Assembly (NCBI GenBank): GCA_020852965.1
Contig: JADYZV010000013.1
Location: 1 to 64,000 of the forward strand
Reading direction: 5' to 3'
DNA length: 64,000 bases
DNA from: Pirellulaceae bacterium
GTDB taxonomy: Bacteria > Planctomycetota > Planctomycetia > Pirellulales > Pirellulaceae
A program made the translations under genes and the position numbers. This document shows positions 9,277-34,454 of this stretch, one piece after another. Within the stretch, counting starts at the first letter, position 1, and every line of letters begins with the position of its first letter. Under the pieces are notes generated by a model. That model had not been told where the DNA came from, ran no database searches, and saw only the letters and a program-made list of their open reading frames with translations.

Positions 9277-9690
9277 CGCTAGCTTACTTTCTATTGAAGG
9301 CAATCTGCTTGAGTTTGCAGTATTTGCATCGCCAATGATACATCGTCGATGGCCGAATTTGAATCACCAAGGATCGTTACGCGTCGAAGCGGTTGGTAGG
9401 CCCACAAGCTCGTCGGCTCATAGCGCCCGTTGCTCCACTCATCGCTTGGACCACCAGACAACTTTACCGACAAACCATCTTCGTGCGACCACTCGTCAGC
9501 AAAAAATAGCCGGTTCGATGCTACGTTGATTTTATCGCGCATGGTGCACGTACTTGTTAATAATTCCTTTCAAGCAACACAAATATCGAGCCTTGACAAT
9601 GCACAAGCTTTAACCACATACTACTACTTATGAGCCTTGCCCGCACTCGCGGAAAGGTGGTTTGGGACGTTAACTCAAGGGGTGGTTGCA
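9277..9690. other. Divergent intergenic region
   Basis: About 410 bases between the starts of two divergently transcribed genes. Short overlapping frames occur on both strands but none shows a family motif or a convincing ribosome-binding site. Promoters for both flanking genes must lie here; I cannot place their boxes with confidence. Confidence 0.5.
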
Positions 9691-12842: not shown

Positions 12843-14447
12843 ATGTCAAAAACAATTACGCTGATCGCATCAGGTGACCTTCGTGACTCGGCAAACCAAG
12901 TATGTTGGGCCGCTCAATGCGAGATGGAAAAGGAGTTTACTACTGCGGTAGAAAAGCTCGGGCACAAGGTCATTCGCGGCCACTCCTTTGACGAATCGCG
13001 TGGGCACGGATTCATTCGCTCGCAGCGACAAGGCATTGAGGTCTTCAGAACGATTGACCCAGACGCGCCTCTGGTCGTTGCCGAAGCGGTCTGGCAGTAT
13101 TCACATCACGTTTTAGCGGGATTGATTACGCATCGGGGGCCAATCCTGACGGTTGCCAATTGGTCCGGACAATGGCCGGGATTGGTCGGCATGTTGAACT
13201 TGAATGGATCGCTGACCAAAGCCAATGTTGGCTATAGCACGCTGTGGGGAGAATCATTTACCAACGACTCGTTTCTCGCAAAGTTGAAACAATGGATCGA
13301 CACCGGCAAAGTCGAGCATGACACCTCGCATGTTACCCCCTTCGATGCCAGCTCATGCGAAGACCGTGCGCGAAAAGTTGGATTGGAGGTTGCGGAAACA
13401 CTTCGAAGAGAAAAGGCCATTTTGGGAGTTTTTGACGAGGGCTGCATGGGGATGTTCAATGCAATTATTCCCGATTCGCTACTCAACCCGCTGGGGATCT
13501 TTAAAGAGCGTCTTAGCCAGTCGGCATTGTACTTTGAAACTCAGCAGGTCTCCGCCCGCGAGGCACAGCAGGTCCGCGATTGGCTCGACCAACAAGGGAT
13601 GCGTTTTCATATAGGCGACAATCATGGCAGCGATCTGACCGATGCGCAAATCCTGGATCAGTGTCGCATGTACATCGCGGCGTTACGCATCGCCGATGAC
13701 TTCGGCTGCGACGCAATTGGTATTCAGTATCAGCAGGGGTTGAAGGATTTGCTGCCCGCCAGCGATCTCGTCGAAGGCATGCTCAACGACTCGCTGCGCC
13801 CGCCAGTCCTAACTCGCGACGGAAAACGTGAGCTTTATGCAGGTCGACCGCTGACGCATTTCAACGAAGTGGATGAGTGTGCTGGCGTTGATGGCTTGCT
13901 GACGGATCGCGTTCACCGAGCCTTGGGCCAGCCGGTCGAGAATACCTTGCACGATCTACGCTGGTCCGATCGCGATGCGTCTGGAACCGTGAATGATGAG
14001 GTTTGGGTATTGGAAATCAGTGGGGCGGTTCCCGCATCGCACTTTGCGCGCGGTTGGGCCGATGCGGAAGGATTCCGCCAGCCACCAATGTATTTCCCCT
14101 CGGGTGGTAGCACGATTCGCGGTGTCTCCAAGGCTGGCGAAGTCGTTTGGTCGCGTATCTTTATCGCCAAGGGGCAACTTCATATGGATATCGGACGCGC
14201 GAAGGCGATCGATTTGCCCATCGAGGAAACCCAGCGGCGTTGGGACGCTACGACGCCACAGTGGCCGATCATGCACGCGGTATTCAGTGGCATGAGCCGT
14301 GACCAGTTAATGGCCAGGCACCAGGCGAATCACATTCAAGTCGCCTATGCCAACTCGACTGCCGAAGCGGCCTTGGTAGTTCAAGCCAAAGCGATCGCTG
14401 CAGACTCGCTGGGTATCAATGTTTCGCTTTGTGGCACTACGGTTTGA
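12843..14447 (+). CDS. L-fucose isomerase family protein
   Basis: A 534-residue protein of the fucose/arabinose isomerase superfamily, in the version that planctomycete genomes usually carry as fucose isomerase. Such enzymes interconvert aldoses and ketoses using a divalent metal, often manganese. The N-terminal half has the Rossmann-like pattern ([15 protein letters not shown], then [18 protein letters not shown]). The metal-ligand region appears at [16 protein letters not shown] and [20 protein letters not shown]. The C-terminal lobe runs through [15 protein letters not shown] and [17 protein letters not shown]. It lies 279 bases after the ribulokinase gene in the same direction, which favours a pentose such as L-arabinose or D-arabinose as substrate. 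The exact sugar cannot be read from the sequence. Confidence 0.82.
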
Positions 14448-17120: not shown

Positions 17121-18089
17121 CTATCCGAAATTCAATGCGACCGCCTGTTCGGGAAAGTTCTCAAGCGTGCGCTCCAGACAATAGCCCGGCCAACGACAGG
17201 TTAGTACACCGCGCGACGGATTATAGGTCGTCGTATAAAGCGTTCCCCAGCCGTGTTGATGATTGTGTTGGTACAGTGGCGGTTCGAGAAATCGTGTGAC
17301 AAAGCGCTCGTGCGTCTCGTGCGGGTCTTGCAGACGAAGAGACAACACATGGGCGCGATCAAGACTGGCTGTGGCCCGAGCATGCTCGGGCCAATCGACC
17401 GTATCTTGATGATTGGTGGCGAGCTTGCGCCGCGACACGACAATGTCTTTGTCGGGCGAAACGAACACGGTGGCGTGAGTACCGGCTCGGTCTAGTACCG
17501 TTACATTGTAGGCCATGTGACTTGGGATTCGGCCGAGGACTTCTGTTGCCTGAGCCGTCGTATCACAAAACTCGAGGATGTAGCGCAAGATCAACGGAAT
17601 GCCAAAGCCAACTCCTAGCGACTTTCGGCCACCAAAGGCCAACGAAACCGCCAAGCCATCTTCATTCATGCCATCGAGCACGCCCCACAGGCAGTCGCTC
17701 ATGGCCATGACTTGCTTTCCGTTCCAGCAAGTGCGCAGCAATAGCCCTTCCCACAGCTTGGAATCGTAATCGTAGTTGCGTATCAGAAACGACTCGTCGC
17801 GCGTCCAGACGGCTTGGGAGCAGCCCGACAAATAAGGTGTCGGGCAGTAGAGGCTAAGGAACCTGGCTACAGCATCGGATCCTCCAGCCAATTCCACCAA
17901 TTGCGAATACAGTGGTAGCAGTTCAGGCATGTGCTGCTTTAATGCCGCTTCGCAGCTCAGGAACTTTGGCCGCGCATGATCCCCCTGCTTGAGAAACCAC
18001 CGGTGATAGGTTGGCCAAAGTCGTTCGAACAGATCTTGCCACTTGGGGCCGGGTTGCAGTTCCGAGATGCATTGGAAAATGACTGACAT
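17121..18089 (-). CDS. C45/AAT-family Ntn-hydrolase (acyl-CoA:6-APA acyltransferase-like)
   Basis: A 322-residue protein of the acyl-coenzyme A:6-aminopenicillanic acid acyltransferase family (peptidase family C45). These autoprocess to expose an N-terminal Cys and then cleave or transfer acyl groups on amides. The predicted nucleophile is Cys90 in YLSGCSQAVWTRDESFLIRN, followed by the family NYDYD motif. Other signatures are GVLDGMNEDGLAVSLAFGGR and MAYNVTVLDRAG. The 89-residue pro-segment has the usual length. Its ATG directly abuts the TAA of the ATP-grasp gene, so the two are surely co-translated. In this locus it could remove or exchange an acyl group that the ligase attaches to an amine; this is inference. 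Confidence 0.88.
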   Translation of the reverse strand: MSVIFQCISELQPGPKWQDLFERLWPTYHRWFLKQGDHARPKFLSCEAALKQHMPELLPLYSQLVELAGGSDAVARFLSLYCPTPYLSGCSQAVWTRDESFLIRNYDYDSKLWEGLLLRTCWNGKQVMAMSDCLWGVLDGMNEDGLAVSLAFGGRKSLGVGFGIPLILRYILEFCDTTAQATEVLGRIPSHMAYNVTVLDRAGTHATVFVSPDKDIVVSRRKLATNHQDTVDWPEHARATASLDRAHVLSLRLQDPHETHERFVTRFLEPPLYQHNHQHGWGTLYTTTYNPSRGVLTCRWPGYCLERTLENFPEQAVALNFG

Positions 18090-19571
18090 TTACATCATCT
18101 TAAAATTGGCAACTTCGGCGATTTCTGTAGCGACTTCGACCTCGGCCGGTTGGATCGGACGCGATTTGAACTCCGACACAATACCTTTGGTCCAGGCGCG
18201 CGCGCGATCGTTGAGCGTGAAATCTTCGGTCATCAATCTTCCCGGAGTAATTAAAATACCGAGATCGGCCCCTTCGTACTTGTAGTCACCTGGTTTTGCG
18301 ATGCGCAAGAAGAAGGCCTCTTTCTCCGACTCAACGGTTCGCCGGTGCGTTTGCATTCTAACGTACTCTACATTTCCATTTTCGTGCAATCGCCAAATAC
18401 CTGTCTGTGGAGCGGAGGTAATGAGCTCGACAGTGTCGGCCGTATGTTTGATCACCAATTGACCCCAACTGTCAATATTCTCGGGATCCGACCAGCGTGC
18501 GTTTAATTCGGCAACGTCGAGTTCGAAATCAACGTCCGCCCATTCGAGTAGATGGAATAGGAACAGTGGAGCGTCGGCATGGGCAAACGCGGCCAAGTTG
18601 GTCATGGCACTTGCGCCGGTGACTCGTGGGTTGACTTCGCCCAAGTACAGTTCGTCAGAATCCAGATCGCGCAGGAAGTCGAGTTCAAAGTAGCCGCGAT
18701 AGCCCATTTTGCGCAGTTCTTCTCCGAAGCGAAAGGTCATATCGCAAGCTTTGGCTCGGATGTCTAGCGAAAATGACTCGGCCAGTACTTCGTTGCCGCA
18801 CCAGCCGCCACGATAGGGTGTCAGCTCTTTGAATCCAACCAACTCGGTCATCATCGGGCCGACGATGGTTCCGTGCCGTGTCACGCAAGCTTCCTGGGCG
18901 GCCCCGCGACAACGAATGCGTTTCATGATCTTCACTTCGGGGTCCGCGACTATCTCGGCAGCATGCTTATTCCAGTCGTCTTCGTTGGAGATGAAGAAGG
19001 TGGTGTGTCCCGAATCCCCGAAGGCTGTTTGAATGACGACGTCCTGGCCCAAGTTCCCAGTTAACTCGCGCATCTGCTGGTAACTCTCTAGCTTGGTGAG
19101 CACGTTGGGAACGCTAGCGATTCCAGCGCGGTCACCAATGCGCGTGGTCATGATTTTATTATCGATTTCTCGTCGAAGTTGGGCTGATGGGAAGCAGACT
19201 TCCAAACCCAATTGTTCACAGAGAGCTTCGGTTTGCTCGTCAAAGAACAGGAAGACTACCTTGCCGCCTTTCCCGTCCCTGGCTCGTCGGCGGATGATAT
19301 CGACCACTTCTTTATGTTCGAGCAGGTAGTTGTTGATGTCCTCGATCGATGCGAATGGTCGATGCGGGATTTCGGAAGGGGTGATCACATGCGGATGTTG
19401 ACCGTCAAAACAATCGATGTAGGTGATGTAGCGAAAGTTGCGTACCCATTCATCGATCCCCATCAAGTTGAAGTTGGTGGCACTGACAAAGTAGATGGGA
19501 GTCTCGTTGCGGTGGAAGAAAAGCCGAATGTCTGGAATGCCCTTGAGGGTACGTTGTTTAGTCGCTGACAT
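18090..19571 (-). CDS. ATP-grasp ligase (biotin-carboxylase-like)
   Basis: A protein of about 493 residues with an ATP-grasp fold, expected to activate a carboxylate as acylphosphate and join it to an amine or similar nucleophile. Visible parts are the pre-ATP-grasp domain (IRLFFHRNETPIYFVSATNF), the central domain (NKIMTTRIGDRAGIASVPN, then DVVIQTAFGDSGHTTFFI with the glycine-rich loop) and the metal/ATP site (GYRGYFELDFL and YLGEVNPRVTGASAM). The C-terminal 120 residues form an extra domain. An upstream TTG extends the frame to 19655, but the ATG at 19569-19571 has GGAG at good spacing. It has no biotin-binding partner nearby. It sits between the Orn/Lys/Arg decarboxylase and the C45 gene. 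Confidence 0.87.
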   Translation of the reverse strand: MSATKQRTLKGIPDIRLFFHRNETPIYFVSATNFNLMGIDEWVRNFRYITYIDCFDGQHPHVITPSEIPHRPFASIEDINNYLLEHKEVVDIIRRRARDGKGGKVVFLFFDEQTEALCEQLGLEVCFPSAQLRREIDNKIMTTRIGDRAGIASVPNVLTKLESYQQMRELTGNLGQDVVIQTAFGDSGHTTFFISNEDDWNKHAAEIVADPEVKIMKRIRCRGAAQEACVTRHGTIVGPMMTELVGFKELTPYRGGWCGNEVLAESFSLDIRAKACDMTFRFGEELRKMGYRGYFELDFLRDLDSDELYLGEVNPRVTGASAMTNLAAFAHADAPLFLFHLLEWADVDFELDVAELNARWSDPENIDSWGQLVIKHTADTVELITSAPQTGIWRLHENGNVEYVRMQTHRRTVESEKEAFFLRIAKPGDYKYEGADLGILITPGRLMTEDFTLNDRARAWTKGIVSEFKSRPIQPAEVEVATEIAEVANFKMM

Positions 19572-19710
19572 GATAAGATCTCCATAAGTTCTCGAAATAA
19601 AGATTGATGTGCGGTTAGGGCCCTCTCCGTGCCTGGTAGCCCTACCTTCCCGCAAGCGGGAGGACAGAGACCTTACATTTGGCGTAGGGAACCATTGGAG
19701 CGCGCATGAG

Positions 19711-22563
19711 TCAAGCCTTTTTTGCTAGGAGCGTTGGGTCCCGGCGAGCGTTGGCTTGCTCGTCTTCCATGGCCATGACTGCTGGTGTAAACACGCGCAT
19801 GCCAAATGTCGGTTCGTAGCCATGGATTTCTTGGACATCCAATGCCATCAGATACTGGACAATCTCGCGGGAGATAACTTGTCCAGGAATCAAGACAGGA
19901 AAACCTGGCGGGTAGGGTGTGATGAAGGCTGCCGAAACCACATCATCCGCATCGGTTTCAACGGCTTGTAGCAGCGAACCGTCTTCGATCTTAAGGTGAT
20001 CGCAGGCGGAATCATCGTAGGCGCGATAGAACGCTCGTCGCAGATCCCCTTCGGGAGTCGTGCTGTCAGGTGAAGTCAAAAAGGCAGGGTGAAAATGGCT
20101 AAAGTTGGGTAGCGGAGGAAGGTCTTCATTGAGTGAAAATACTCGCTGTCGATGAACCTCCAGCTCCACTCCACTCCAGCGATCCAGTTTGTCGTTCAAG
20201 TCAATGGCGATTTCAGATAGCACATTGATCAGGTGAGCAATCGTTCCCCGCGTCATACCGATGTGGATCATGAATAGCACGGAATTGCGGGAAGTCTTGT
20301 TGATCTGAATATCGAAGCGATCCATCAGTAGTTTTTTGAAGGCGTCGCCATCGAGACCTGTGCGCCCGACGTGGAGCGTCACGCGAGTTGGATCGAGTAC
20401 GAACTCGTCTCCCAGCCAAGCTTTGTCCATGCGATACCAGCCGTCGCTGTTGCTGAAATACTCTTCTAATCCGGAGGGGCGATACTCCGGATGGATCATG
20501 TCCTTGGCAGCCAAAACGGTGAAGAATTTGCTGATTAGCGGATCGGCGGTAATCCGTTCTCGAAGCATCATAGCCAGTTCGATACTCCGGCCAACCATAT
20601 CGTACCCCTCCAGTTCGACTTGCCGTCGTCCGACATCGAGCGACGCCAAGATTTGGTAGTTGGGCGATGTCGATGTGTGCGTCATGTAGGATTCGTTGAA
20701 TGCATTGCGAGCGTGGTGTTCAAAGTCCTGGTCGTGGACGTGTATCATCGAGCCCTGTCGCAGGGCTGTTAGCGTTTTGTGTGTTGAATGCGTCGCATAG
20801 ACGCGCACTCGCGCTTCGTCCGGGTCCGGCATGAGTCGTTGGTTCAGCCAATTTGCATCGTCACTTGGCTCATTAGCGTCAAACTCACTACGCCACTCTG
20901 CGTACCGTTTGCGATACTTGGGATCCGCAAAACGCTTGCGCAATTCGGCTGCCGACCACATGGCAGTTCGCCGTCGAAGAATAGGTGAAAATCTTGCGTA
21001 GGCACACCAAGCTTCATCCCATAAGAAGATCATGTCGGGTTTGATCGCTAGCACTTCTTCCATGATGCGAATAGGATCATAAACAATGCCATCAAAGGTA
21101 ATGTTTGTCAGGAGCAACATCCTCACGCGATCGAGTTTCCCGGCGGCTCGTAGCTCAAGTAATCGCTTCTTGATCTCGCTCAATGGTACCGCACCATACA
21201 TCGAATATTCCGGCAGAGGATACGCATCTAGGTAAATCGGAAACGCGCCCGAGAGAATCACAGCATAGGGGTGAGACTTGTGGCAATCATGCGCAAGCAG
21301 CACGATGTCTCCGGGACGATTGATCGCCTGCATGACGATCTTGTTTGCTGTCGATGTGCCGTTAGTCACAAAATAGGTTCTGCGGGCACCGAAAGCTCGG
21401 GCGGCTCGCTGTTGGCTATCACGCAGTGAACCGCTAGGCTGGAGTAAAGAGTCTAGGCCGCCGGTCGTAGCTGACGTTTCCGCTTCGAAGACTTTGTGTC
21501 CATAAAATTCCCCCATGTCCTTGATCCAGTGCGAGCGCACGATCGTGGCTGAATGCGAAATAGGCAAAGCGTGAAACATGGCTGTCGGCTTCAAGCTATA
21601 CTTCTTTAGCGCGTTGAAGAAGGGTGTTTCATAACGCTCGTTGACAGCCTTCAAGATGCTCAGGTGTAACTCCTGGAAATTCTCCATGTGGTAGAACGCT
21701 CGTCGAAAAACTCGACTTGGTTCGCCAACGATACTCTCTACCGGTGCATCCGTGACCATATAGAGGTCAAGCTCAGGTCGCAGCGAGTGCAGTGAATTTC
21801 CAAGCATCAAACTTCGATCGGTGGGCATCGACGATTCGATCTTCGCTACGTCGTGCCGTAGCAACGAATGGAGTTCTTCCAATAGTCGGAACCTTTTTTT
21901 CGACCGAAACGGGCAAGTGTAGCGGACGACGCAGGTTTGAATGTCCGGGTTCATCAGCACGGCTAATAGAGCGTCCTCATAGGTCCGCGCCACCACCACT
22001 TCATAGAAGAACAGATCATCAGCTCGCCGCAGATCCCGCAATTGTCGACGCAGATCTTTGGCTTCAATTTCGGCCAAATCGTCGACGACCAAGACCTGGA
22101 AATAGGGACGTTTCTCCTGTCGAATTCGCGTGTGAATTTCTTCGCTCAGCTTAGCCACGTTGAGCAAATCACCGTAGTCTGTCAATCGCGATTCGGTCAA
22201 ATCGAGTTTTCGATATTGACCATTGGACAACATGCGTACCAGTCGAATTGACTGTCGCGCAAAGTCTTCATACCTTTTGCTTGCGAACGACTGCGAAACC
22301 TGCTCTAACGCAGGGCTGCCTGGGAACACAAAGAACTCCTCCAGCGGGCGGAGGAAGCTGAAAACTTCTGTGCAGGCATCCGTGATCCACATCACTTCGG
22401 ATTGTTCCGCCGGGGTGCCCGATTTAATGATTCGGCTCAATCGTCGCGCGTTATCACGCAAGAAATGCCAGTTGTCCGTGCGCAATCGAGTGGCGTTGTA
22501 CAGTGCAACATTGGATGGGTCGAGAGAATTGAAATCGAAGTAATGGTACTCTTGCTCGTGCAT
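19711..22563 (-). CDS. Orn/Lys/Arg decarboxylase family protein, long form
   Basis: A 950-residue PLP enzyme of the fold-I ornithine/lysine/arginine decarboxylase family. It would make putrescine, cadaverine or agmatine. The first 330 residues include an ill-defined N-terminal domain and a receiver-like wing (FQVLVVDDLAEIEAKDL). The catalytic core has VTNGTSTANKIVMQA, LLAHDCHKSHPYAVILSGA, the Asp motif FLWDEAWCAYA and the Schiff-base Lys in THSTHKTLTALRQGSMIHV. The C-terminal domain ends with TPYPPGFPVLIPGQ, the family hallmark. At 950 residues it is longer than the usual 710-760. Substrate preference cannot be read off. It follows the nitrilase gene by 82 bases and precedes the ATP-grasp gene. 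Confidence 0.9.
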   Translation of the reverse strand: MHEQEYHYFDFNSLDPSNVALYNATRLRTDNWHFLRDNARRLSRIIKSGTPAEQSEVMWITDACTEVFSFLRPLEEFFVFPGSPALEQVSQSFASKRYEDFARQSIRLVRMLSNGQYRKLDLTESRLTDYGDLLNVAKLSEEIHTRIRQEKRPYFQVLVVDDLAEIEAKDLRRQLRDLRRADDLFFYEVVVARTYEDALLAVLMNPDIQTCVVRYTCPFRSKKRFRLLEELHSLLRHDVAKIESSMPTDRSLMLGNSLHSLRPELDLYMVTDAPVESIVGEPSRVFRRAFYHMENFQELHLSILKAVNERYETPFFNALKKYSLKPTAMFHALPISHSATIVRSHWIKDMGEFYGHKVFEAETSATTGGLDSLLQPSGSLRDSQQRAARAFGARRTYFVTNGTSTANKIVMQAINRPGDIVLLAHDCHKSHPYAVILSGAFPIYLDAYPLPEYSMYGAVPLSEIKKRLLELRAAGKLDRVRMLLLTNITFDGIVYDPIRIMEEVLAIKPDMIFLWDEAWCAYARFSPILRRRTAMWSAAELRKRFADPKYRKRYAEWRSEFDANEPSDDANWLNQRLMPDPDEARVRVYATHSTHKTLTALRQGSMIHVHDQDFEHHARNAFNESYMTHTSTSPNYQILASLDVGRRQVELEGYDMVGRSIELAMMLRERITADPLISKFFTVLAAKDMIHPEYRPSGLEEYFSNSDGWYRMDKAWLGDEFVLDPTRVTLHVGRTGLDGDAFKKLLMDRFDIQINKTSRNSVLFMIHIGMTRGTIAHLINVLSEIAIDLNDKLDRWSGVELEVHRQRVFSLNEDLPPLPNFSHFHPAFLTSPDSTTPEGDLRRAFYRAYDDSACDHLKIEDGSLLQAVETDADDVVSAAFITPYPPGFPVLIPGQVISREIVQYLMALDVQEIHGYEPTFGMRVFTPAVMAMEDEQANARRDPTLLAKKA

Positions 22564-22645
22564 CTCTATTCAATTCCCTTTAGTTTCTTTGAGAACCGCG
22601 GCTAATGCCAAAACGGCTAATCCCTGATTTGAGTTTGGAAAAGCA

Positions 22646-23536
22646 CTAGCTCTTCGGTTCGTCGTCTGCGAGCCCCGCTCGTGAACCTCGCGTTTGCTTG
22701 GCGAGTGGGCCGAGCGATTGCAAATACTCTCCAGTTTTTCCACCTGGTGCATAAATCGGGAAATTGACCTCGGAGTCGCGGAAGCTCTTCAGTGGTTGCC
22801 CCAAACCACGAAGGCCAACTTCTCGATAACGACGCGCCCGCTCGATGTCGATTTCGAATGGAACAAGTTCTTCGGAAGCGCCGAACTGGTGCAGTACGTC
22901 ACCGGCAGGGCCGCAGATGATCGAGCGGCCGTTGCCTCCATCGCCGACTCCGTTGATGTCGACCATGAAGCACTGGTTCGTGGCTGCCGTCGCTCGTACA
23001 ATGGCCAGCTCGACATCGCGATCGATCGTCGTCGTCAGTGTAGGGTGCAAGATGACTTCAGCACCCATGCTAGCGAGTACGCGTGAGGTTTCAGGGAACC
23101 ACATGTCGTAACAAATCGAAACCCCGAATCGCCCAACATCTGGCACATCAAACACAAAGAAAGAATTGCCACAGGTGGTCCCCTCTTCGTAGGGAAGGAA
23201 CGGAAACATCTTGCGGTAGCGTCCGACGATTTTGCCTGTTGGATCGATAACCGAAAGCGTGTTGTAGTTCTGACCATTGAGGATTTCGATCAGCGAACCG
23301 TTGACAATCCAAATGTGGTGTTTGGCCGCCATCTCCTGGAACTTACGCTCGGCTGGACCGGGCAGTGGTTCTGCCTTGGCCGGATTGGGCCCGTACGCCG
23401 CGAGCTCGCTGAACACAACCATTTGTACCCAGGGGAAGAGGTACATGAAATAGTCCAATTTGGCCGAAATATAGGGCAAGTTGTCTCGCAGGCCAGAAGT
23501 GGTTAGCTGCAAGCCGCCAATAGCAAAAGGAATCAA
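22646..23536 (-). CDS. Carbon-nitrogen hydrolase (nitrilase superfamily amidase)
   Basis: A protein of about 296 residues in the nitrilase superfamily. It hydrolyses a C-N bond of an amide, most likely a carbamoyl or carboxamide substrate. The catalytic triad is visible: Glu in VVFSELAAYGP, Lys in VGRYRKMFPFLPYEEG and Cys in GVSICYDMWFPETSR. The tail is longer than usual. The frame extends to a TTG at 23584 that overlaps the aminotransferase stop, but I prefer TTG 23536, which has CGGAGAA upstream and begins the first beta strand (LIPFAIGGLQL). In this operon a role like N-carbamoylputrescine amidase, or in removing the acyl part of a conjugated amine, is plausible but unproven. Confidence 0.87.
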   Translation of the reverse strand: MIPFAIGGLQLTTSGLRDNLPYISAKLDYFMYLFPWVQMVVFSELAAYGPNPAKAEPLPGPAERKFQEMAAKHHIWIVNGSLIEILNGQNYNTLSVIDPTGKIVGRYRKMFPFLPYEEGTTCGNSFFVFDVPDVGRFGVSICYDMWFPETSRVLASMGAEVILHPTLTTTIDRDVELAIVRATAATNQCFMVDINGVGDGGNGRSIICGPAGDVLHQFGASEELVPFEIDIERARRYREVGLRGLGQPLKSFRDSEVNFPIYAPGGKTGEYLQSLGPLAKQTRGSRAGLADDEPKS

Positions 23537-23573
23537 GTGGTTTCTCCGAATGAAGGTTGTTTTCTCTGGGCGA

Positions 23574-24878
23574 TCACTTAGCAATCGCTCGTTCAGTCTC
23601 TTCGGTCAAAATATCAAGGCCCCGGTTGAGTTGTCGGTCGGTAATAACCAAGGGCATCAAGAAGCGAATCACATTGCCATGAATCCCAGCCCCAAGGATG
23701 AGCAAGCCACGAGCGACACAGGCTGATAGTATGCGGGCCGTCAATTCGGTAGCTGGCTGATGCGGATCGCCATGGTAGTTGAATTCCATACCGACCATGG
23801 CGCCCAGGCCACGGATGTCGCCAACATGCTGAGGGAAACGCTTTTGTAAAGCGCGTAGTCGCGAGTTGATAACCTCACCGATTGCGGTTGCGCACTCATT
23901 GAGGTGTAAGTCTTCCATCAACTTAATCGTTGCCAATGAGGATGCGCACGCGACCGGATTTCCTCCGTAAGTACCGCCAATAGTGCCGAGGCGGGCTGCG
24001 TCCATAATTTCCGCGCGCCCAACGACGGCACCGATCGGCAGACCACCTCCCATGGACTTGGCCCATACGGAAATGTCTGGCAGAACTCCGTAGTGTTCGT
24101 AGGCTGCCCAGCGGCCGGTACGACAAAACCCGGACTGAACTTCATCCAAGATCAGTAAGATTCCGTTTTCGTCACAAATCTTTCGCAGTCCTCTGAGATA
24201 CTCGCGTGGTGCCGGTACAAATCCGCCTTCTCCTTGCACGGGTTCAAGGATAACTGCCGCAACTTGCTCCGCAGCCACCGTATTGAGTAAGGACTCACGA
24301 AACCGATCGAGTTCGCGCTCGACAAATATTGCCTCGCTAAGACCGTCACCGTAACGGTAGAAATTTGGAAAGGGCAAACGATAGACTTCGGGAGCATATG
24401 GCCCGCAACCGATCTTGTAGCCGAATTTGGAGGTGAGCGACATGGCCATCATCGTGCGGCCATGAAAGCCCTCGGTATAGCAAATTACCGCTGATCGGTT
24501 CGTGGCTTGCCTGGCGATTTTAATGGCGTTCTCGACCGCCTCTGCTCCCGAGTTAACCAACATTGCTTTGGTGTGTTCACCATGAGGTAACAGTTCGGCC
24601 AGCTTTTCACAGAGAGCGACGTAGGGCTCGTACGTTGCAACCTGAAAGCATGTGTGCAGCAGCCTATTCGCTTGGTCAACAATTGCTTCGATGACCGTCG
24701 GTTGGCAATGCCCGACATTCATGACACCAATACCACCGACGAAATCGATGACTTCCCGGCCGCTTGCGTCCGTCAAGCATGCGCCAGATGCTGAAGTTGC
24801 GACGAGCGGAGTGACCATCGAGATACCGCGTGGGGTGACGGCAAGTCGTCGTGCGATCAAGTCCGCGTTGCTGCTCAT
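23574..24878 (-). CDS. gabT: Class III aminotransferase (4-aminobutyrate aminotransferase-like)
   Basis: A PLP-dependent class III omega-aminotransferase of about 434 residues, closest in motifs to GabT/PuuE. It would transfer the amino group of GABA or a similar omega-amine to 2-oxoglutarate, giving the semialdehyde. Cofactor motifs are VNSGAEAVENAIKIAR, EGFHGRTMMAMSLT, ILEPVQGEGG, LDEVQSGFCRTG and the lysine in AKSMGGGLPIGAVVG. The frame opens with an ATG at 24977, but the ATG at 24876-24878 (MSSNADLIARR) matches the family N-terminus and has GAGGG upstream. The longer form would begin inside the predicted promoter. It heads the left-going operon under the palindromic operator. The SSADH on the other arm would oxidise its product. 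Confidence 0.88.
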   Translation of the reverse strand: MSSNADLIARRLAVTPRGISMVTPLVATSASGACLTDASGREVIDFVGGIGVMNVGHCQPTVIEAIVDQANRLLHTCFQVATYEPYVALCEKLAELLPHGEHTKAMLVNSGAEAVENAIKIARQATNRSAVICYTEGFHGRTMMAMSLTSKFGYKIGCGPYAPEVYRLPFPNFYRYGDGLSEAIFVERELDRFRESLLNTVAAEQVAAVILEPVQGEGGFVPAPREYLRGLRKICDENGILLILDEVQSGFCRTGRWAAYEHYGVLPDISVWAKSMGGGLPIGAVVGRAEIMDAARLGTIGGTYGGNPVACASSLATIKLMEDLHLNECATAIGEVINSRLRALQKRFPQHVGDIRGLGAMVGMEFNYHGDPHQPATELTARILSACVARGLLILGAGIHGNVIRFLMPLVITDRQLNRGLDILTEETERAIAK

Positions 24879-24991
24879 TTGCTGATGCCCTCGGCTGATG
24901 CTTTTGAATGCGTGGCGGCCAAACTCGATTCCAGTCGTTTGGCCAGGGGGATAGAAAATTCGCAGTCCCCCAAACATGCGATTGATATATT

Positions 24992-25027
24992 AAACACTAT
25001 TTGCTACATTTGTAGCAATAGGTGTTT
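24992..25027. promoter_or_regulatory. Palindromic operator between the divergent amine-catabolism operons
   Basis: AAACACTATTTGCTACA (24992-25008) and TGTAGCAATAGGTGTTT (25011-25027) form an inverted repeat with 14 of 17 positions matching and a two-base spacer. It lies between the aminotransferase gene and the XRE-cupin regulator gene, 22 bases before the regulator ATG. The leftward promoter probably overlaps it (TTGCTA and TTTAAT with 18-base spacing on the minus strand). It is the natural binding site for the neighbouring regulator, which would make the locus autoregulated and inducible by its amine or intermediate. Confidence 0.7.
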
Positions 25028-25048
25028 GTTTTGTGTGTCATGTAGGAC

Positions 25049-25663
25049 ATGGCGTTTAATATGATTAACAAGAATGCCAGCGTCGTGGAGCCTTCCTCGG
25101 GTGAGCCCAGTCCCAATTCGGCTGAAGTCGGGAGCCGAGTTCGCCGTCTGCGACAAATTTATGGTATCTCGCAACGTGAGCTCGCCAAGCAAGCCGGTGT
25201 GACCAATGGCGCGATTTCGATGATCGAACAGAATCGAGTCAGCCCTTCGGTCGCCTCATTGAAGAAGATCTTGGAGGTGTTCGGACTCGCTTTGGCAGAT
25301 TTCTTTGCAGATGAGTTTGAGCCCGAAAAGAAGATCTTCTTTCGAGCTCATGAGATGAATCGCATCTCGGATGGATTGGTCGTACTTCGTCAGATTGGCG
25401 GACAGATATCGAGCCGGCGAATGCAAGTCTTGCATGAGACCTACGTCCCAGGTGGCGATACTGGACCCGATATGCTCACACACGAAGGTGAAGAGGCGGG
25501 CGTTATCGTGCGCGGTACCATTGAACTTACTGTGGGCAGTCAATCGGAAGTTCTTGGCGCAGGTGATGGTTACTACTTTTCAAGTCGGATCCCGCACCGT
25601 TTCCGGAATATAGATTCTGAGGACTGCGAAATTGTTAGCTCCTGCACCCCTCCGACTTTTTAG
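25049..25663 (+). CDS. XRE-cupin transcriptional regulator (PuuR-like)
   Basis: A 204-residue regulator with an N-terminal HTH-XRE domain (residues about 27-82, VGSRVRRLRQIYGISQRELA and GAISMIEQNRVSPSVASLKK) and a C-terminal cupin (residues about 135-200, GDTGPDMLTHEGEEAGVIV and YYFSSRIPHRFRNI). This architecture is that of PuuR, the repressor of putrescine utilisation, and of other small-molecule sensing repressors in which the cupin holds the effector. The ATG at 25049 has a weak TAGGAC ahead; an ATG at 25061 is possible. It is divergent from the aminotransferase operon, with the palindrome in between. The genes downstream are a symporter and an SSADH. Confidence 0.9.
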   Translation: MAFNMINKNASVVEPSSGEPSPNSAEVGSRVRRLRQIYGISQRELAKQAGVTNGAISMIEQNRVSPSVASLKKILEVFGLALADFFADEFEPEKKIFFRAHEMNRISDGLVVLRQIGGQISSRRMQVLHETYVPGGDTGPDMLTHEGEEAGVIVRGTIELTVGSQSEVLGAGDGYYFSSRIPHRFRNIDSEDCEIVSSCTPPTF

Positions 25664-25724
25664 AACACTGAAAACAAGTCACGCAGAAAGAAACAGTATC
25701 CATTCGCACGAGTTAGTTTATTTG

Positions 25725-25756
25725 CCAACTACGAAAAATACGAAGCACACGAAAAG
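25725..25756. repeat. Left arm of imperfect inverted repeat
   Basis: The ACGAAAAATACGAAGCACAC type sequence is inverse to 25957-25986 with roughly three quarters of positions matching. ACGAA-rich arms of this kind are common between genes in planctomycete and verrucomicrobial DNA. Confidence 0.45.
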
Positions 25757-25956
25757 CTGGCTCTGTTCCTCACTAGGTTTTTAGAACCCGGCAATTTCAT
25801 CCGCAAAATTCTTAGTGGACGACTCGTTCCTATTGCTCTTTGTAAATCTAGAACATCGCTATCATGATTTTGCAACCTGGATCTCAGAACAGTATTTCGG
25901 CATTGCTCACTACCTCACCTCGTTGCTGGGCCCCAAAGAACAACAACAGAGATTTT

Positions 25957-25986
25957 TTTTCGTGTAGTTCGAGTCGTTCGTGGTTA
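25957..25986. repeat. Right arm of imperfect inverted repeat
   Basis: TTTCGTGTAGTTCGAGTCGT with continuation to 25986. It is the partner of the arm at 25725-25756. Confidence 0.45.
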
Positions 25987-26023
25987 ATACAACTCGCAAT
26001 CCTCCAAGTTCGTGAACGGTGAC

Positions 26024-27553
26024 ATGAAACTTATCGGAATCGCCATCTATCTGATTATTCTTTTGTTGATCGGCGTCTTTGCCTCCCGACAGATGAAGGA
26101 TCTGCGCGATTACTACGCGGGAGGCAAGCGTTTTGGGTTTTGGGCTGCATCATTTTCTTCGCGCGCTACGGGCGAATCAGCCTGGCTGTTGATCGGGTTG
26201 ACCGGTATGGGGGCCGCCGTCGGAGCGCAGGCTTTGTGGGTCGTGCTCGGGGAAGTCCTGGGTGTGGCCGCAGCCTGGATATTTCTGTGTAGGCGATTCA
26301 AACGACTAACCGATCGTTACGATTCCATCACCATCCCCGACTACTTGGAATCACGCCTGCGCGATACGAGTCAGCGCATACGCCTGGTGTCCGCATTCAC
26401 GCTCATGGTATTTGTGACGATTTATGTTAGTGCGCAAATCGATGCGATCGGAACGGCCTTCGAAGGTTTTCTCGGTTGGAACTATTATGTAGGCGCAATC
26501 GTGGGCTTCGCAGTCGTGTTGGTCTATATCGTCAGTGGTGGCTTTGTAGCAGTCGTTTGGTCCGATGTCTTCCAAGCTTGTTTGATGGTCTTGGGCTTAA
26601 TCGCTTTGCCCGTGTTTGGTCTGCTTGCGATCGGCGGCGTTGATCCGGCGGTTGCGCAAATCCGCGCACAAGACCCCCAATTGTTATCGTTGTGGGGACC
26701 GGAAGGCCAGAGTTGGAACAGCTTCTTCACGATTCTTGGTTTCCTGGCAATCGGGCTTGGTTTCCTGGGTTCGCCTCAAATATTTGTGCGATTTCTCTCC
26801 ATGCGATCGGAGAAGGAAATTCGCCCGGGCGCCATTGTGGCTGTGATTTGGACTCTGATGGCGACCTTGGGAGCCGTGCTTGTCGGCATAGTAGGTCGAG
26901 CGCTTCTCATGTCGCCTTCGCATTCCATGACCGACGAACTGGGGTCAGGTGGTCAACAAGTGCTACCGATGTTGGTCTCGGCTGCCGTTCCCGACTGGGG
27001 CGTTGGGCTGTACATCGCCATAGTGTTGGCGGCTATCATGTCGACCGTGGATTCGCTGTTGGTGCTCGCCTCAAGTGCGTTCGTTCGCGACTACTACCAA
27101 AAAGTCTTGCATCCTGAGATGTCCGACACGAAATTGCTCGGGCGAAGTCGCTTGGTAACATTTGTGCTGGCGGCGATTGCGCTGGGTATTGCGTTTTCAG
27201 TGGCCGCACTGATACCTGGTCGAACCGTGTTTTGGTTTGCTATCTTCGGCTGGTCGGGAATTTCGGCCACGTTTTGCCCAACCATGATATTGTCGCTCTA
27301 TTGGTCTCGACTTACCGCGCGTGGTGCGTTGGCCGCCATGCTAACAGGTTTTGCCAGCGTACCGTTCTTCAAGTTCATCGCGCCGCAGATTCCAGTAGTG
27401 GGCGATAGCTTTGGGTCTCTATCGGAATTGCCGCCGGCGTTTGTCATGTCGGGGATTGTGGCTGTGGTGGTCAGCCTGTCGGATCGTCAAGGAAAGATTG
27501 ACTGGTCTGGACTCGATGCGGAAATAGGCAATGCAAACAATTTGCAAGAGTAA
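26024..27553 (+). CDS. Sodium:solute symporter (SSS family, PutP-like)
   Basis: An integral membrane protein of about 509 residues and roughly 13 transmembrane helices in the sodium/solute symporter family. It begins with LIGIAIYLIILLLIGVFASR and carries the hallmark sequences YYAGGKRFGFWAASFSSRAT and GESAWLLIGLTGMG. The inner helices around SGGFVAVVWSDVFQACLMV and AIVLAAIMSTVDSLLVLASS match proline/pantothenate-type transporters. A GTG at 26012 gives four extra residues; the ATG at 26024 is preferred. With the regulator upstream and SSADH downstream it is likely the uptake system for the amine or amino acid that this locus degrades, perhaps GABA, proline or a polyamine conjugate. Confidence 0.88.
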   Translation: MKLIGIAIYLIILLLIGVFASRQMKDLRDYYAGGKRFGFWAASFSSRATGESAWLLIGLTGMGAAVGAQALWVVLGEVLGVAAAWIFLCRRFKRLTDRYDSITIPDYLESRLRDTSQRIRLVSAFTLMVFVTIYVSAQIDAIGTAFEGFLGWNYYVGAIVGFAVVLVYIVSGGFVAVVWSDVFQACLMVLGLIALPVFGLLAIGGVDPAVAQIRAQDPQLLSLWGPEGQSWNSFFTILGFLAIGLGFLGSPQIFVRFLSMRSEKEIRPGAIVAVIWTLMATLGAVLVGIVGRALLMSPSHSMTDELGSGGQQVLPMLVSAAVPDWGVGLYIAIVLAAIMSTVDSLLVLASSAFVRDYYQKVLHPEMSDTKLLGRSRLVTFVLAAIALGIAFSVAALIPGRTVFWFAIFGWSGISATFCPTMILSLYWSRLTARGALAAMLTGFASVPFFKFIAPQIPVVGDSFGSLSELPPAFVMSGIVAVVVSLSDRQGKIDWSGLDAEIGNANNLQE

Positions 27554-27669
27554 GATAGTTTTCAAAGACGGTAACGGAGCCTGATCTTGATTGGTGTTCT
27601 ATCTTTACTTGTAGCACTCACGCTTTCATTATTGATTACTAGCTTCGCTACAAAAACGAAAGAAACAAA

Positions 27670-29115
27670 ATGCTTGAGTCACCATTGTTAAACGATTCAC
27701 TCGGTTACATCGACGGAAAATGGTGTGCTGCCGATAGCGGGAAAACGATGCCGGTCACCAACCCTGCGACGGGTGAGACCATTGCCATCGTTCCCATCAT
27801 GGGCAAATCCGAAACGATCCGCGCTGTCGACGCGGCGGCTGCTGCACTGGCGACCCCTGCGTCGATCGAGCAGCGCAGTCACTGGCTCAGCCAGCTTGCC
27901 GATCTAATCACGCAGCACCGAGAGGAGCTGGGGCGGATCATCACTCACGAGCATGGCAAGCCGTGGAAGGAAGCTCAAGGCGAAGCCGATTACGCTGCGA
28001 GTTTCTTTCGTTTTTACTCGACGTGTATCGAACACTTGCGGCCAAAGAAGTTGCCGGACCGGCCAAGGAACCACCGTTGGACGGTCTACTATCGGCCTGC
28101 CGGAGTCGCCGCGCTGGTGACCCCGTGGAATTTCCCACTAGCCATGCTGGCCAAGAAATTCTCAGCGGCATTGGCGGCGGACTGCTGCTGCGTTATCAAG
28201 CCCTCGTCGAAAACACCATTGTCGATGGTGGCACTATTTACTTTGCTGGAGCAATTAAAACTGCCTGCCGGGAAGGCAAATTTGGTGCTTGGCCCAGCAG
28301 GTGAAATTAGTGATGTCCTTTGCGAACATCCGGCCGTGCGCGTGATCAGCTTTACCGGATCGACGCCTGTGGGCAAAAAACTGATGGCTGCCACAGCGCC
28401 ACACTTGAAGCGTCTGTCTTTGGAACTAGGAGGAAATGCGCCCTTCATTGTGTTCGATGACGCGGATATCGACCAAGCCGTCGAACAGTTGATGGCCAAT
28501 AAATTCCGAGGCGCTGGACAAACCTGCGTGTGTGCCAATCGAATTTACGTGCAAACCAGTATCGCGCAAGAGTTCTCGCAAAAGCTTGCCACGCGGGCCA
28601 ATGCACTGAAGGTCGGAAATGGTATGGATGAAGGGACCGAGATGGGACCGCTCATCGATAGCCATGCGGTTGAAAAAGTTCAGCGACATGTCACTGATGC
28701 CATTGCCAAAGGTGCGCAGCGAATTGCAGGTAGCGAATCTACAACAGCGAAATCGCAGACAGGCAATTTCTTTGCTCCAACTGTACTGCGCGGTGTGACG
28801 GCCGACATGGAATGCGTTCAAGACGAGACGTTTGGTCCACTGGCACCTATCATTGAATTCACCGACGAGGATGAAGTGGTTGCAGCAGCCAACTCGACTG
28901 AGTACGGACTGGCCGCCTACGTCTTCACCAAGAGCGACGCTCGCGCCGAGCGAGTGATTTCGCGGCTGAGTTTCGGTCACGTAGGGCACAACACGGGCTC
29001 CGGTCCCACTGCGGAAGCTCCCTTTGGCGGCATGAAGCACTCGGGATTCGGCAGAGAAGGCGGAGTGGAAGGGCTGCACGACTTCATTGAAGCTCAGTCC
29101 GTTCCACGGCCCTAG
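27670..29115 (+). CDS. gabD: Succinate-semialdehyde dehydrogenase-like aldehyde dehydrogenase
   Basis: A 481-residue NAD(P)-dependent aldehyde dehydrogenase with the succinate-semialdehyde dehydrogenase signature. It would oxidise succinic (or a related omega-carboxylic) semialdehyde to the acid feeding the TCA cycle. Motifs are the N-terminal YIDGKWCAADSGKTMPVTNP, the cofactor segment VTPWNFPLAMLAKKFSAALA, the general base Glu in LSLELGGNAPFIV and the nucleophile in GQTCVCANRIYV, which is the form typical of GabD. The C-terminal EAPFGGMKHSGFGREGG is also diagnostic. It lies 116 bases after the symporter on the rightward arm and complements the aminotransferase of the leftward arm. Confidence 0.92.
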   Translation: MLESPLLNDSLGYIDGKWCAADSGKTMPVTNPATGETIAIVPIMGKSETIRAVDAAAAALATPASIEQRSHWLSQLADLITQHREELGRIITHEHGKPWKEAQGEADYAASFFRFYSTCIEHLRPKKLPDRPRNHRWTVYYRPAGVAALVTPWNFPLAMLAKKFSAALAADCCCVIKPSSKTPLSMVALFTLLEQLKLPAGKANLVLGPAGEISDVLCEHPAVRVISFTGSTPVGKKLMAATAPHLKRLSLELGGNAPFIVFDDADIDQAVEQLMANKFRGAGQTCVCANRIYVQTSIAQEFSQKLATRANALKVGNGMDEGTEMGPLIDSHAVEKVQRHVTDAIAKGAQRIAGSESTTAKSQTGNFFAPTVLRGVTADMECVQDETFGPLAPIIEFTDEDEVVAAANSTEYGLAAYVFTKSDARAERVISRLSFGHVGHNTGSGPTAEAPFGGMKHSGFGREGGVEGLHDFIEAQSVPRP

Positions 29116-30549: not shown

Positions 30550-31773
30550 CTACCTTGGTGACTCTAGTTTGGATTTCCTTCGATGGCGGCCAGCCATGGC
30601 AAGACTACTGACAACGATGGCGACTGCGGGGTAGGCAATGCCAGGGAGCCGAGCGGGCGTCTGCTCCAGCAGTGGGGCTGATAGCGAGACATGCTCCGCC
30701 GCAATGGCAGCCAGGATCGTGTCCCGAACAGAATTCGGTTGGGGCTGGATGTCGCCACTGGCGATCAGTCCAACGCTACGATGCAGGCCGACGGTCGCGT
30801 CGAGCACCACGTCGACTATTGAAGGAGTCAGCTCTTGTAAATTCGAGGGAAGATTGCTCGTGCATTGGATGTCGTCGATTAGGCCAGTCGAATTACCGAA
30901 CCAGTTCGCAATCGCCAGGTCGACCGCGTGTCTGTTCTTCAGAATTTCGTTGTCTATATCATTTGCGGCTGAGCGAAGTGCCTGCAATGCAGCATGATCC
31001 AATTCCCAAGGTTTCTCCGCTGGGGAGGCTGTACCTTCCTTGAATTCATGCTGCAGCGTGGGAAGACTATCAATTAAGCCCCCAAGGCTTTCCCTATTCT
31101 GGTCTATTGCGTGGGCGTTGGTTTCCAGTGGACGATTGAGTTGCTCGTATCTAGGGTTCTCGATCGAAAAGACTTGAGTCGCCGAGTCGTTGTTCATTAC
31201 TACATCAACCGGCGCAGACTCGCCTTGTACACTCGTTCGCTCAAGGGCGCTTTGTTCTTGGACATTCTCTGTTGCGATCGTCGCCGCCGGCGGCAAGACT
31301 GTCGAATTGCCGAGCATCAAATCCCGTCCAGTTCGGGAATTGCTGCCCATGGTTGGTGGACCATTGTCGCTAGCACTAACACCTGTGGTGATTGATGGCC
31401 TGAAGACAAAAGTAAATTGCATGGGTGGATCGGCAGGTTTTGGTTGACGCAGTGCAACGACTGGGCGAAGTGGATCGTTGCGCATTGGATCTATCATTGG
31501 TTGAGGGGTCGGCGTTGGTGTCTGTTGGGCCGAATCCAGTGATTGGTGACGCTGGGCGTCTTGACGTGGGTCGATTCGCGGTTGGAAGTGCTGAGCACTT
31601 GCGTCTGTTTGCCCTGCAACGGCTGCCGAGTGCGCAGATCGATTCTCGGTGGTAGCACGATCACAAGAATGGCTATCGAGGGTCGTCGATTGCTCAAATA
31701 CTCCTGCGGCGAGCAAACAACGAGACTCGAGTTGTTCTAACAGCAGTGCTCTTGAAATGATGGGTTTGCTCAT
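30550..31773 (-). CDS. LEPR-XLL-type leader protein with C-terminal membrane segment
   Basis: A 407-residue protein with no recognised catalytic domain. The N-terminus RALLLEQLESRCLLAAGVF matches the planctomycete LEPR-XLL-type leader, a short motif at the start of many large exported surface proteins. The body is low in structure, Ser/Thr/Gln-rich and acidic (residues about 40-230), followed by a helical part (WELDHAALQALRSAANDIDN). Near the C-terminus a hydrophobic segment (GIAYPAVAIVVSSLAMAG) is followed by the basic tail RHRRKSK, as in a sorting or anchor signal. The ATG overlaps the stop of the upstream kinase gene (ATGA), so it is translationally coupled and may be the kinase's partner or surface target. 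The exact function is unknown. Confidence 0.75.
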   Translation of the reverse strand: MSKPIISRALLLEQLESRCLLAAGVFEQSTTLDSHSCDRATTENRSAHSAAVAGQTDASAQHFQPRIDPRQDAQRHQSLDSAQQTPTPTPQPMIDPMRNDPLRPVVALRQPKPADPPMQFTFVFRPSITTGVSASDNGPPTMGSNSRTGRDLMLGNSTVLPPAATIATENVQEQSALERTSVQGESAPVDVVMNNDSATQVFSIENPRYEQLNRPLETNAHAIDQNRESLGGLIDSLPTLQHEFKEGTASPAEKPWELDHAALQALRSAANDIDNEILKNRHAVDLAIANWFGNSTGLIDDIQCTSNLPSNLQELTPSIVDVVLDATVGLHRSVGLIASGDIQPQPNSVRDTILAAIAAEHVSLSAPLLEQTPARLPGIAYPAVAIVVSSLAMAGRHRRKSKLESPR

Positions 31774-34391: not shown

Positions 34392-34454
34392 TTGGGTATC
34401 CCAAAGTAGCACGCACACTCCGCTGTGTGGTGGCCCAATGATCAGTGCTTACTA

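Follow-up and report, generated by a model that had tools for sequence, protein, structure and literature searches.

A conserved module of an ATP-grasp ligase, a C45 hydrolase and an Rv2531c-type decarboxylase that suggests an undescribed route of amine breakdown

Comparison of gene neighbourhoods and protein families revealed a conserved gene module that suggests an undescribed amine breakdown route in bacteria. The module was analysed in a Pirellulaceae bacterium, in which the window (the whole stretch of 64,000 nucleotides, positions 1-64,000 of contig JADYZV010000013.1 in assembly GCA_020852965.1) contains the locus at positions 17121-29115. The best available explanation is that an ATP-grasp ligase would attach a group to a putative amine substrate and a C45 hydrolase would cleave it off again. 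No paper on this gene set was among the matches listed from the open-licence PMC literature, which does not show its absence from print.

Gene content and conservation of the locus

An earlier sequence-only reading had named eight genes with their families, and all eight open reading frames were found in place with agreeing profile matches (Table 1). The ligase probably starts at the conserved ATG at 19571 (493 aa) rather than the TTG at 19655, and the aminotransferase probably at 24878, since its alignment with full-length relatives begins only at residue 34 or 35.

Table 1. Features of the locus in the window
Feature	Coordinates	Strand	Evidence
C45-family Ntn hydrolase/acyltransferase (core)	17121..18089	-	PF03417 5.6e-31; NF040521 162 bits vs cut-off 85
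ATP-grasp ligase, PRK06524/NF005096 family (core)	18090..19571, ORF up to 19655	-	NF005096 769 bits vs cut-off 684
Rv2531c-type Orn/Lys/Arg-family (OKR) PLP decarboxylase, 950 aa (core, most loci)	19711..22563	-	PF01276 2.6e-74
Nitrilase-superfamily amidase (core, most loci)	22646..23584	-	PF00795 2.3e-34
Class III aminotransferase (AT3), GABA-aminotransferase-like; usual in planctomycete loci	23574..24977	-	PF00202 5.4e-122; TIGR00700 494 bits vs 507
17-nt inverted repeat, 2-nt spacer, weak candidate operator	24992..25027	.	82% complementary; divergent promoter region
XRE-cupin regulator, PuuR-like (peripheral)	25049..25663	+	PRK09943 PuuR 153 bits vs cut-off 211
SSS-family symporter, PutP-like (peripheral)	26012..27553	+	PF00474
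Aldehyde dehydrogenase, SSADH-like (peripheral to usual)	27670..29115	+	SSADH profile TIGR01780 543 bits vs cut-off 646

In the window, the ligase and C45 genes abut exactly as first read, with no spacer between the ligase TAA and the C45 ATG. Their proposed pairing held well beyond it: the ligase led to 46 relative loci, and in 43 of them the C45 gene is next downstream on the ligase strand, within 200 bases in 42 of these and with 13 stop/start overlaps. Long open frames hinted at ligase-C45 fusions; no open reading frame matched more than one of the families in the loci tested, and the two are separate proteins. The decarboxylase is present in 41 of the 46 loci. Gene order varies and the set persists, as nitrilase-decarboxylase-ligase-C45 or as nitrilase-ligase-C45-decarboxylase (L098, L101 and L103). 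Conservation outside this strain, on which the first reading had made its pathway model depend, is thus seen as linkage of the core genes in distant bacteria: loci with the ligase-C45 pair carry the titles of Planctomycetota, Deltaproteobacteria/Myxococcota and Pseudomonadota.

Contrary to the first reading, the eight families do not form one unit. By tblastn (E up to 1e-20), the class III aminotransferase is found in 27 and SSADH in 25 of the 46 loci (14 of the 25 at ≥40% identity), both common mainly in planctomycete loci; the XRE regulator occurs in 7 loci and the SSS symporter in one. The adjoining GABA-type genes were borne out, since the aminotransferases of L057 and L065 exceed the TIGR00700 GABA-aminotransferase cut-off (573 and 543 vs 507 bits), and that of the window lies just under it. 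PuuR is the best NCBIfam model for the XRE-cupin protein, at a score below its cut-off. The candidate operator overlaps a promoter-like match at 24982-25010, one of 4 such matches, fewer than in shuffled sequences (mean 8.5), and the same form of repeat was not seen in L006 or L004.

To follow up the suggested co-occurrence in planctomycete genomes, we searched 392 genomes of the window's phylum, using Fisher tests that ignore phylogeny. The ligase is present in 19, the decarboxylase in 20 and C45 in 20. Ligase and decarboxylase occur together in 19 of the 20 genomes that have either (2e-31), and the other pairwise overlaps of the three are 18 (7e-28) and 18 (7e-27). Co-occurrence stood for ligase, decarboxylase and C45; the regulator and the symporter are peripheral in the 46 loci. 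Three apparent ligase-less counter-examples were discarded: the G264 decarboxylase belongs to an AspT-linked branch, the G075 C45 adjoins a short ligase piece, and the G095 C45 is on a contig of 4.6 kb that ends 311 bases away from it. One exception remains, L064/G177, with ligase and decarboxylase and no recognisable C45 found. In the tree, the decarboxylases of L081 and L084, which have no ligase nearby, are interspersed with those linked to a ligase. Plasmid records matched C45 in 108, decarboxylase in 39 and ligase in 33 cases, and the partners are thus not exclusive; plasmid C45 relatives without the ligase gave no functional clue in two contexts (L078 and L079). Because the distribution is patchy, horizontal spread of the module is likely.

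Residues of the ligase, hydrolase and decarboxylase

The ligase has no Pfam match at 1e-3 and scores above the curated cut-off of NF005096 (PRK06524), a family that NCBI names 'biotin carboxylase'. We compared 14 positions of AccC in 27 rows, which represent 27 of the 47 ligases. K116, E288, N290 and R292 are retained in all 27 rows, whereas Q294 (T/S/C), V295 (G), E296 (A/V/I/C) and R338 (T/V), residues of the bicarbonate/biotin site, are retained in none. K159, an ATP-binding lysine of AccC, is replaced by Gln and E276 by Asp in 27/27; H209 is found in no row and H236 in one, the K238 position holds Lys in 15 rows and Arg in 9, and E201 aligns to a gap. The compared positions outside the bicarbonate/biotin site are ATP-grasp residues. 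Because the four checked biotin-carboxylase residues are replaced in every row, the label 'biotin carboxylase' looks wrong for this family.

The NCBI name, together with the PDB relatives of the ligase profile, which match over parts of the ATP-grasp region and with few exceptions are biotin-dependent carboxylases, could favour the view that a misnamed biotin carboxylase lies by chance among unrelated catabolic genes. The replaced residues argue against this, and conserved synteny and co-occurrence contradict it and exclude it for the core genes; the XRE and SSS genes fall outside that exclusion. As a whole, this explanation is extremely improbable.

The predicted C45 nucleophile, Cys90, which would become N-terminal through autoproteolysis, is present in 45/45 rows, as are Asp107, Asp139 and Asn226; Arg104 is present in 44/45 and Asn105 in 41/45. 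Structure predictions from seven-row alignments were poor for both C45 (mean pLDDT 57) and the ligase (mean pLDDT 41).

Residues 20-939 of the decarboxylase match PDB entries 9n0n/9n0p and 9n0o at 815 bits, which makes these a full-length homologue; 9n0n and 9n0p share the molecule name of 9n0o ('probable amino acid decarboxylase') and score nearly equally. According to PMC12910592, 9N0O is the cryo-EM structure of Rv2531c, an enzyme whose activity is described there as not clarified; PMC4569260 reports that an adi knock-out could still grow on arginine as nitrogen source. Aligned against E. coli CadA, AdiA and SpeF, the catalytic residues K596, H595, D516 and H428 are present in 42/42 rows, the PLP lysine lying within STHK. 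All the listed NCBIfam lysine, arginine and ornithine decarboxylase models score far below cut-off.

A proposed protect-and-release mechanism and its alternatives

We tentatively favour, at something short of even confidence, a catabolic module, probably horizontally spread, that would carry a basic amino acid of C5 type, most probably ornithine or arginine, to the GABA/succinate level by ligation, oxidation and cleavage. The ATP-grasp enzyme would activate a carboxylate as acyl phosphate, and the acyl group would be joined to a terminal amine, whether on the amino acid, on its decarboxylation product or on a GABA-level intermediate. The amide would stop the amine from cyclising (pyrroline formation) during decarboxylation and oxidation of the remaining chain; C45 would then release the amine by hydrolysing the amide, and the last steps would fall to GABA-aminotransferase and SSADH. 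In favour of this mechanism are the conserved pairing, the co-occurrence, the persistence of the set in varying order and the GABA-type neighbours; the catalytic residues of C45, nitrilase and decarboxylase are also intact. Against it, profile searches found no amine oxidase among the eight proteins of the locus, and therefore the aminotransferase would also have to act on the (protected) amine. Further observations tell against it: the Gln at K159 in the ligase, the five loci that lack a local decarboxylase, the partners that also occur apart, the missing C45 in L064/G177, a nitrilase with no settled step, and ABC importers that suit amide import equally well.

The E. coli Puu pathway combines ATP-dependent ligation by a glutamine-synthetase-type enzyme, oxidation of the other end and amide hydrolysis, followed by GabT/GabD. 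The module would work like Puu, with the same proposed ligate-oxidise-cleave logic and, in some loci, an XRE-cupin regulator, and is not a member of it. An ATP-grasp ligase and a C45 Ntn hydrolase stand where Puu has a glutamine-synthetase-type ligase and a class I amidotransferase-type hydrolase; there is no FAD oxidase at the locus, and a decarboxylase and a nitrilase are extra. Among the eight locus proteins we found neither a PuuA-type ligase (a single PF00120 match in the genome, 70 bits) nor a PuuB-type FAD oxidase, and the locus lacks a PuuD-type (C26) hydrolase (5 PF07722 matches elsewhere in the genome, best 200 bits). The first reading's phrase that the module 'replaces glutamylation enzymes' is an analogy as regards both substrate and transferred group. 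Glutathionylspermidine synthetase/amidase also pairs an ATP-using ligase with a cysteine amidase on a polyamine conjugate, but as one fused protein with an unrelated amidase fold and no catabolic neighbours. In insect neurotransmitter recycling, Ebony and Tan are the beta-alanyl-dopamine ligase and hydrolase; Tan, which undoes an amine ligation, belongs to the C45/acyltransferase type, but Ebony is an NRPS-like ligase.

The nitrilase triad E60-K125-C158 is intact in 39/39 rows, and an AguB (N-carbamoylputrescine amidase) assignment was rejected (TIGR03381, 76 bits vs cut-off 410). The gene is present in 39 of the 46 loci (none shown in 7), immediately upstream of the decarboxylase in 29 of the 39. 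With the GABA-type aminotransferase and dehydrogenase, this arrangement would suit a route like lysine davBA, in which oxidative decarboxylation of a basic amino acid by the OKR enzyme gives an omega-amino amide, the nitrilase hydrolyses this to the omega-amino acid, aminotransferase and SSADH follow, and other steps on the same pool are left to ligase and C45. Such a route accounts for the amidase and the missing amine oxidase, but loci that lack the decarboxylase still have the nitrilase with the ligase (L028, L075 and, 7 kb off, L066, L071 and L076). In addition, a separate branch of the decarboxylase family adjoins AspT-type antiporters, an arrangement that suits plain decarboxylation and exchange. 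We consider the whole route distinctly unlikely.

Ligase and C45 without a local decarboxylase were found in 5 of the 46 loci, three of which have another decarboxylation route, so the decarboxylase product, taken at first as the substrate, is not a necessary one, and the ligated group may be carried by the amino acid itself or by an intermediate at the GABA level. The three (L066, L071 and L076) are near-copies of one arginine/ornithine-type operon, in which the pair lies with an ornithine-racemase-like protein, a D-amino acid dehydrogenase, an aldehyde dehydrogenase, a 5-guanidino-2-oxopentanoate (2-ketoarginine) decarboxylase (733 bits vs cut-off 500) and an agmatinase-family ureohydrolase (216 vs 174), scored in L066 and assigned by annotation or similarity in L071 and L076. 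These operons hold the characteristic genes of D-arginine dehydrogenase/AruI arginine catabolism, a pathway that to our knowledge includes no ligase or C45 hydrolase. The operon would thus reach the same C4 level by a second path. An arginine route in these loci could, however, do without protection of the amine, as cyclisation is already blocked by the guanidino group, which tells against the favoured mechanism. An active arginase-like C-terminal domain of the L066 racemase fusion was rejected, as the expected metal motifs were not seen in its translation.

Other neighbourhoods bear on whether an amide is made or taken up. ABC importers adjoin the ligase-C45 pair in Roseobacter (annotated as oligopeptide/dipeptide type) and Rhizobium (annotated without a type), and also, as judged from similarity, in S. 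meliloti RU11 and C. necator pBB1. The rhizobial operon L072 has an amidase-signature enzyme, L073, L074 and L080 an annotated amidase, and an M20 carbamoylase-type hydrolase adjoins the ligase in L028 and lies ~10 kb upstream in L075. These genes would fit import of an amide or peptide-like compound. C45 and amidase would split off an amino acid of basic or omega-amino type, and the ligase would salvage the remaining half or transfer it. However, the transporter gene at the window's locus is for an SSS symporter, the compact loci L103, L105 and L106 gave no match to the reference importers, and the persistence of hydrolase and ligase together is left unexplained, so that we regard imported-conjugate catabolism as unlikely.

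Some rhizobial copies lie near nif genes and others near a radical-SAM RiPP cluster. Since C45 proteins include acyltransferases and the distribution is patchy, the ligase might instead use a decarboxylated amino acid to build a small amide or a dipeptide, with C45 as acyltransferase or tailoring enzyme and a signal, metallophore or protectant as product. Such a biosynthetic role is quite improbable: no recurring exporter, carrier or further tailoring gene was seen in the annotated loci, although many open reading frames of the other genomes carry no assignment, and genes of catabolic type, namely those for GABA-AT, SSADH, ketoacid decarboxylase and importers, come up repeatedly.

Implications for three enzyme families

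The module joins three poorly understood families, the PRK06524 'biotin carboxylases', the C45 hydrolases and the Rv2531c-type decarboxylases, in at least three phyla, including legume-symbiont plasmids. It exposes what looks like a misleading database name and reduces an orphan-enzyme question to a small set of assays, for which harmless bacteria can supply the enzymes. The module is at most a new form of protected-amine catabolism. It is possible, though doubtful, that ligase and C45 provide an undescribed protect-and-release chemistry serving several decarboxylation routes from arginine/ornithine to GABA, through either the Rv2531c-type PLP decarboxylase or a racemase, D-amino acid dehydrogenase and ketoacid decarboxylase, which would give the Rv2531c-type decarboxylases a conserved metabolic context.

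The ligase-C45 pair and its gene neighbourhood

The association of the ligase with the C45 hydrolase, the Orn/Lys/Arg-family (OKR) decarboxylase and the nitrilase is real and conserved. The sequence-only reading had named eight genes in the window locus, and family profile searches recovered all eight ORFs with the families as named. In the window sequence, the C45 gene starts directly after the ligase stop codon, with no spacer bases. The nearest named relatives of the window ligase (L002, L006 and L007; 86-87% identity) are titled Planctomycetota, and the window's phylum is taken to be Planctomycetota on that basis. The window contained no Rfam family at its gathering score and no tRNA detected by ARAGORN. 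Other ORFs observed in the window are listed in the table below; the N-terminal stretch LEQLESRCLLA in one of them is LEPR-XLL-like.

Features of the window and of related loci
Record	Coordinates	Feature
Window	17121-29115	locus under study
Window	12843-14447	534-aa ORF resembling an L-fucose/arabinose-isomerase-type sugar isomerase (by eye from the sequence)
Window	30550-34418	407-aa ORF (N-terminal LEQLESRCLLA) beside an 882-aa ORF resembling a Ser/Thr protein kinase (by eye from the sequence)
L132 (G075)	8972-9469	165-aa ligase ORF (50% identity), followed directly by a complete C45 gene
L131	7959-12505	region of a decarboxylase of a separate Rv2531c-type clade (with L082, L083, L085), which adjoins aspartate:alanine (AspT) antiporter genes
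L066	15801-17588	ORF annotated 'Alanine racemase'; Orr-like domain fused to an arginase-like C-terminal domain

Related loci were gathered via the ligase only (n = 46): 6 from GTDB r220 contigs, 18 from the window's phylum (19 of 392 genomes ligase-positive, own genome included), 1 from a search of 60 relatives, 10 from the phylum of genome G449, which carries the gammaproteobacterial locus L005 (11 of 398 genomes ligase-positive, G449 included), and 11 from plasmids, out of 33 ligase-matching plasmid records. The plasmid loci L067, L080 and L068 were left out of the counts, and the 46 loci are not independent, many being closely related to each other. The C45 gene was directly downstream of the ligase gene on the same strand in 43 of the 46 loci, with gaps of at most 597 bases (42 within 200); 19 of these gaps were negative, and 13 of those measured -1. 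Three loci depart from this arrangement: L028, with a gap of 1.07 kb, L064, in which the ligase is present and no C45 was found, and L104, in which C45 is on the opposite strand and the contig ends just past the ligase. The decarboxylase was present in 41/46 loci and the nitrilase in 39/46. Catalytic residues were retained throughout: Lys/His/Asp of the decarboxylase in 42/42 rows, the nucleophile Cys of C45 in 45/45 and Glu-Lys-Cys of the nitrilase in 39/39. One Rhizobium plasmid record (NZ_CP071402.1) contains the decarboxylase-ligase region twice, both times close to nif genes: L080, in the order decarboxylase, ligase, C45, and L067, in which transposases follow and no C45 gene is annotated. 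L072 is also near nif genes.

The eight families had been put forward as one unit, which did not hold: the XRE-cupin gene occurred in 7/46 loci and the SSS symporter gene in 1/46, so neither is core. The class III aminotransferase was found in 27/46 loci (22/24 among the GTDB r220 and same-phylum loci) and an SSADH-like dehydrogenase in 25/46, 14 of them with at least 40% identity.

Co-occurrence and distribution

Three co-occurrence searches in the window's phylum were treated as one 392-genome set because their quality-class tallies and listed genomes were identical. The ligase was found in 19 genomes, the decarboxylase in 20 and C45 in 20, with overlaps among them of 19, 18 and 18 genomes (Fisher p 2e-31, 7e-28 and 7e-27, phylogeny ignored). 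Among the mismatch genomes, the decarboxylase of G264 belongs to the AspT-antiporter-linked clade (support 100/100), a ligase fragment adjoins C45 in G075, and C45 sits at a contig end in G095; G177 is the sole mismatch without an explanation. The short ORF of G075 appears to be a shortened or broken ligase copy.

Ligase-linked rows do not form one side of any branch in the decarboxylase tree, and among them are the AspT-linked clade and L081 and L084, which have no local ligase. The antiporter adjacency of that clade suggests substrate/product exchange. Plasmid records matched C45 (108), the decarboxylase (39, E up to 1e-80) and the ligase (33), and C45 relatives on plasmids of Sulfitobacter and Sinorhizobium medicae have unrelated gene contexts. 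Of 59 other relatives, 14 of them congeneric, a single one exceeded the ligase family cut-off, namely G034, from a different genus of the family; 29 further relatives had weak ligase matches resembling other ATP-grasp or carboxylase proteins. Of the 33 ligase-matching plasmid records, 24 were typed conjugative. The patchy distribution and the plasmid copies point to horizontal spread of the module.

Identity of the ligase and the decarboxylase

The window ligase matched NF005096 (PRK06524), named 'biotin carboxylase', at 769 bits (cut-off 684) and had no Pfam match at 1e-3. We compared 14 positions of E. coli AccC, among them K159 of the ATP site, in 27 of 47 ligase sequences. K116, E288, N290 and R292 were retained in 27/27, while Q294, V295, E296, R338 and H209 were retained in none and H236 in one; E201 aligned to a gap. 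K159 was replaced by Gln and E276 by Asp in 27/27, and position K238 held Lys in 15 sequences and Arg in 9. Because of this pattern, the PRK06524 ligase would be an ATP-grasp-like enzyme and can hardly be a biotin carboxylase; the K159 replacement argues against an entirely canonical ATP site. The database name, which is carried in the plasmid records examined, is probably wrong.

The 950-residue window decarboxylase matched PDB 9n0n/9n0p and 9n0o over residues 20-939 (815 bits), whereas its match to E. coli-type decarboxylases in the PDB was split in two, the better piece covering about residues 310-536. According to a review, 9N0O is Mycobacterium tuberculosis Rv2531c, the activity of which is described as not clarified (PMC12910592), and in a growth study, an adi (Rv2531c) knock-out retained the ability to grow on arginine as nitrogen source (PMC4569260).

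Alternative gene contexts and the proposed amide protection

Roseateles L066, Shinella L071 and Sinorhizobium RAC02 L076 are near-copies of one operon, in which an aldehyde dehydrogenase and a D-amino acid dehydrogenase flank the ligase-C45 pair. Also encoded in the operon is a 5-guanidino-2-oxopentanoate decarboxylase, which in L066 scores 733 bits against a cut-off of 500; the agmatinase-family ureohydrolase of the operon reaches 216 against 174 there. A further member is an ornithine-racemase-like protein of 595 residues (397 bits in L066, below the cut-off of 480), whose arginase-like C-terminus appears to have lost the metal-binding motifs. A local OKR decarboxylase is absent from these three loci, but the Roseateles plasmid carries one at another site. 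In L028 and in C. necator pBB1 (L075), the ligase-C45 pair is accompanied by a nitrilase but by no local decarboxylase; TRAP or ABC transporters are nearby, and an M20 carbamoylase-type hydrolase adjoins the ligase in L028 and lies some 10 kb upstream in L075. In the rhizobial operons, an amidase takes the place of the nitrilase, and an ABC importer is also present.

In the own genome, no ureohydrolase was found (0 PF00491 hits), and there were one agmatine-deiminase-family match, a second OKR decarboxylase (480 bits) and one weak glutamine-synthetase-type match. This gives no evident sign of a glutamylation route, and a route through guanidinobutyrate would be without its last enzyme. The window module, which had been likened to the Puu pathway, is not a Puu pathway. 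No paper matching this gene set was found in the part of the open-licence PMC literature surveyed.

The recurring theme across the loci is conversion of a basic amino acid to the GABA level via differing decarboxylation routes, with the ligase and C45 constant. Of the earlier Puu-like proposal, protection and release stands as the simplest reading, but protection may fall on the amino acid itself or on a compound at the GABA level. The ligase would protect the amine as an amide and C45 would release it, a mechanism that we consider plausible, if somewhat short of an even chance.
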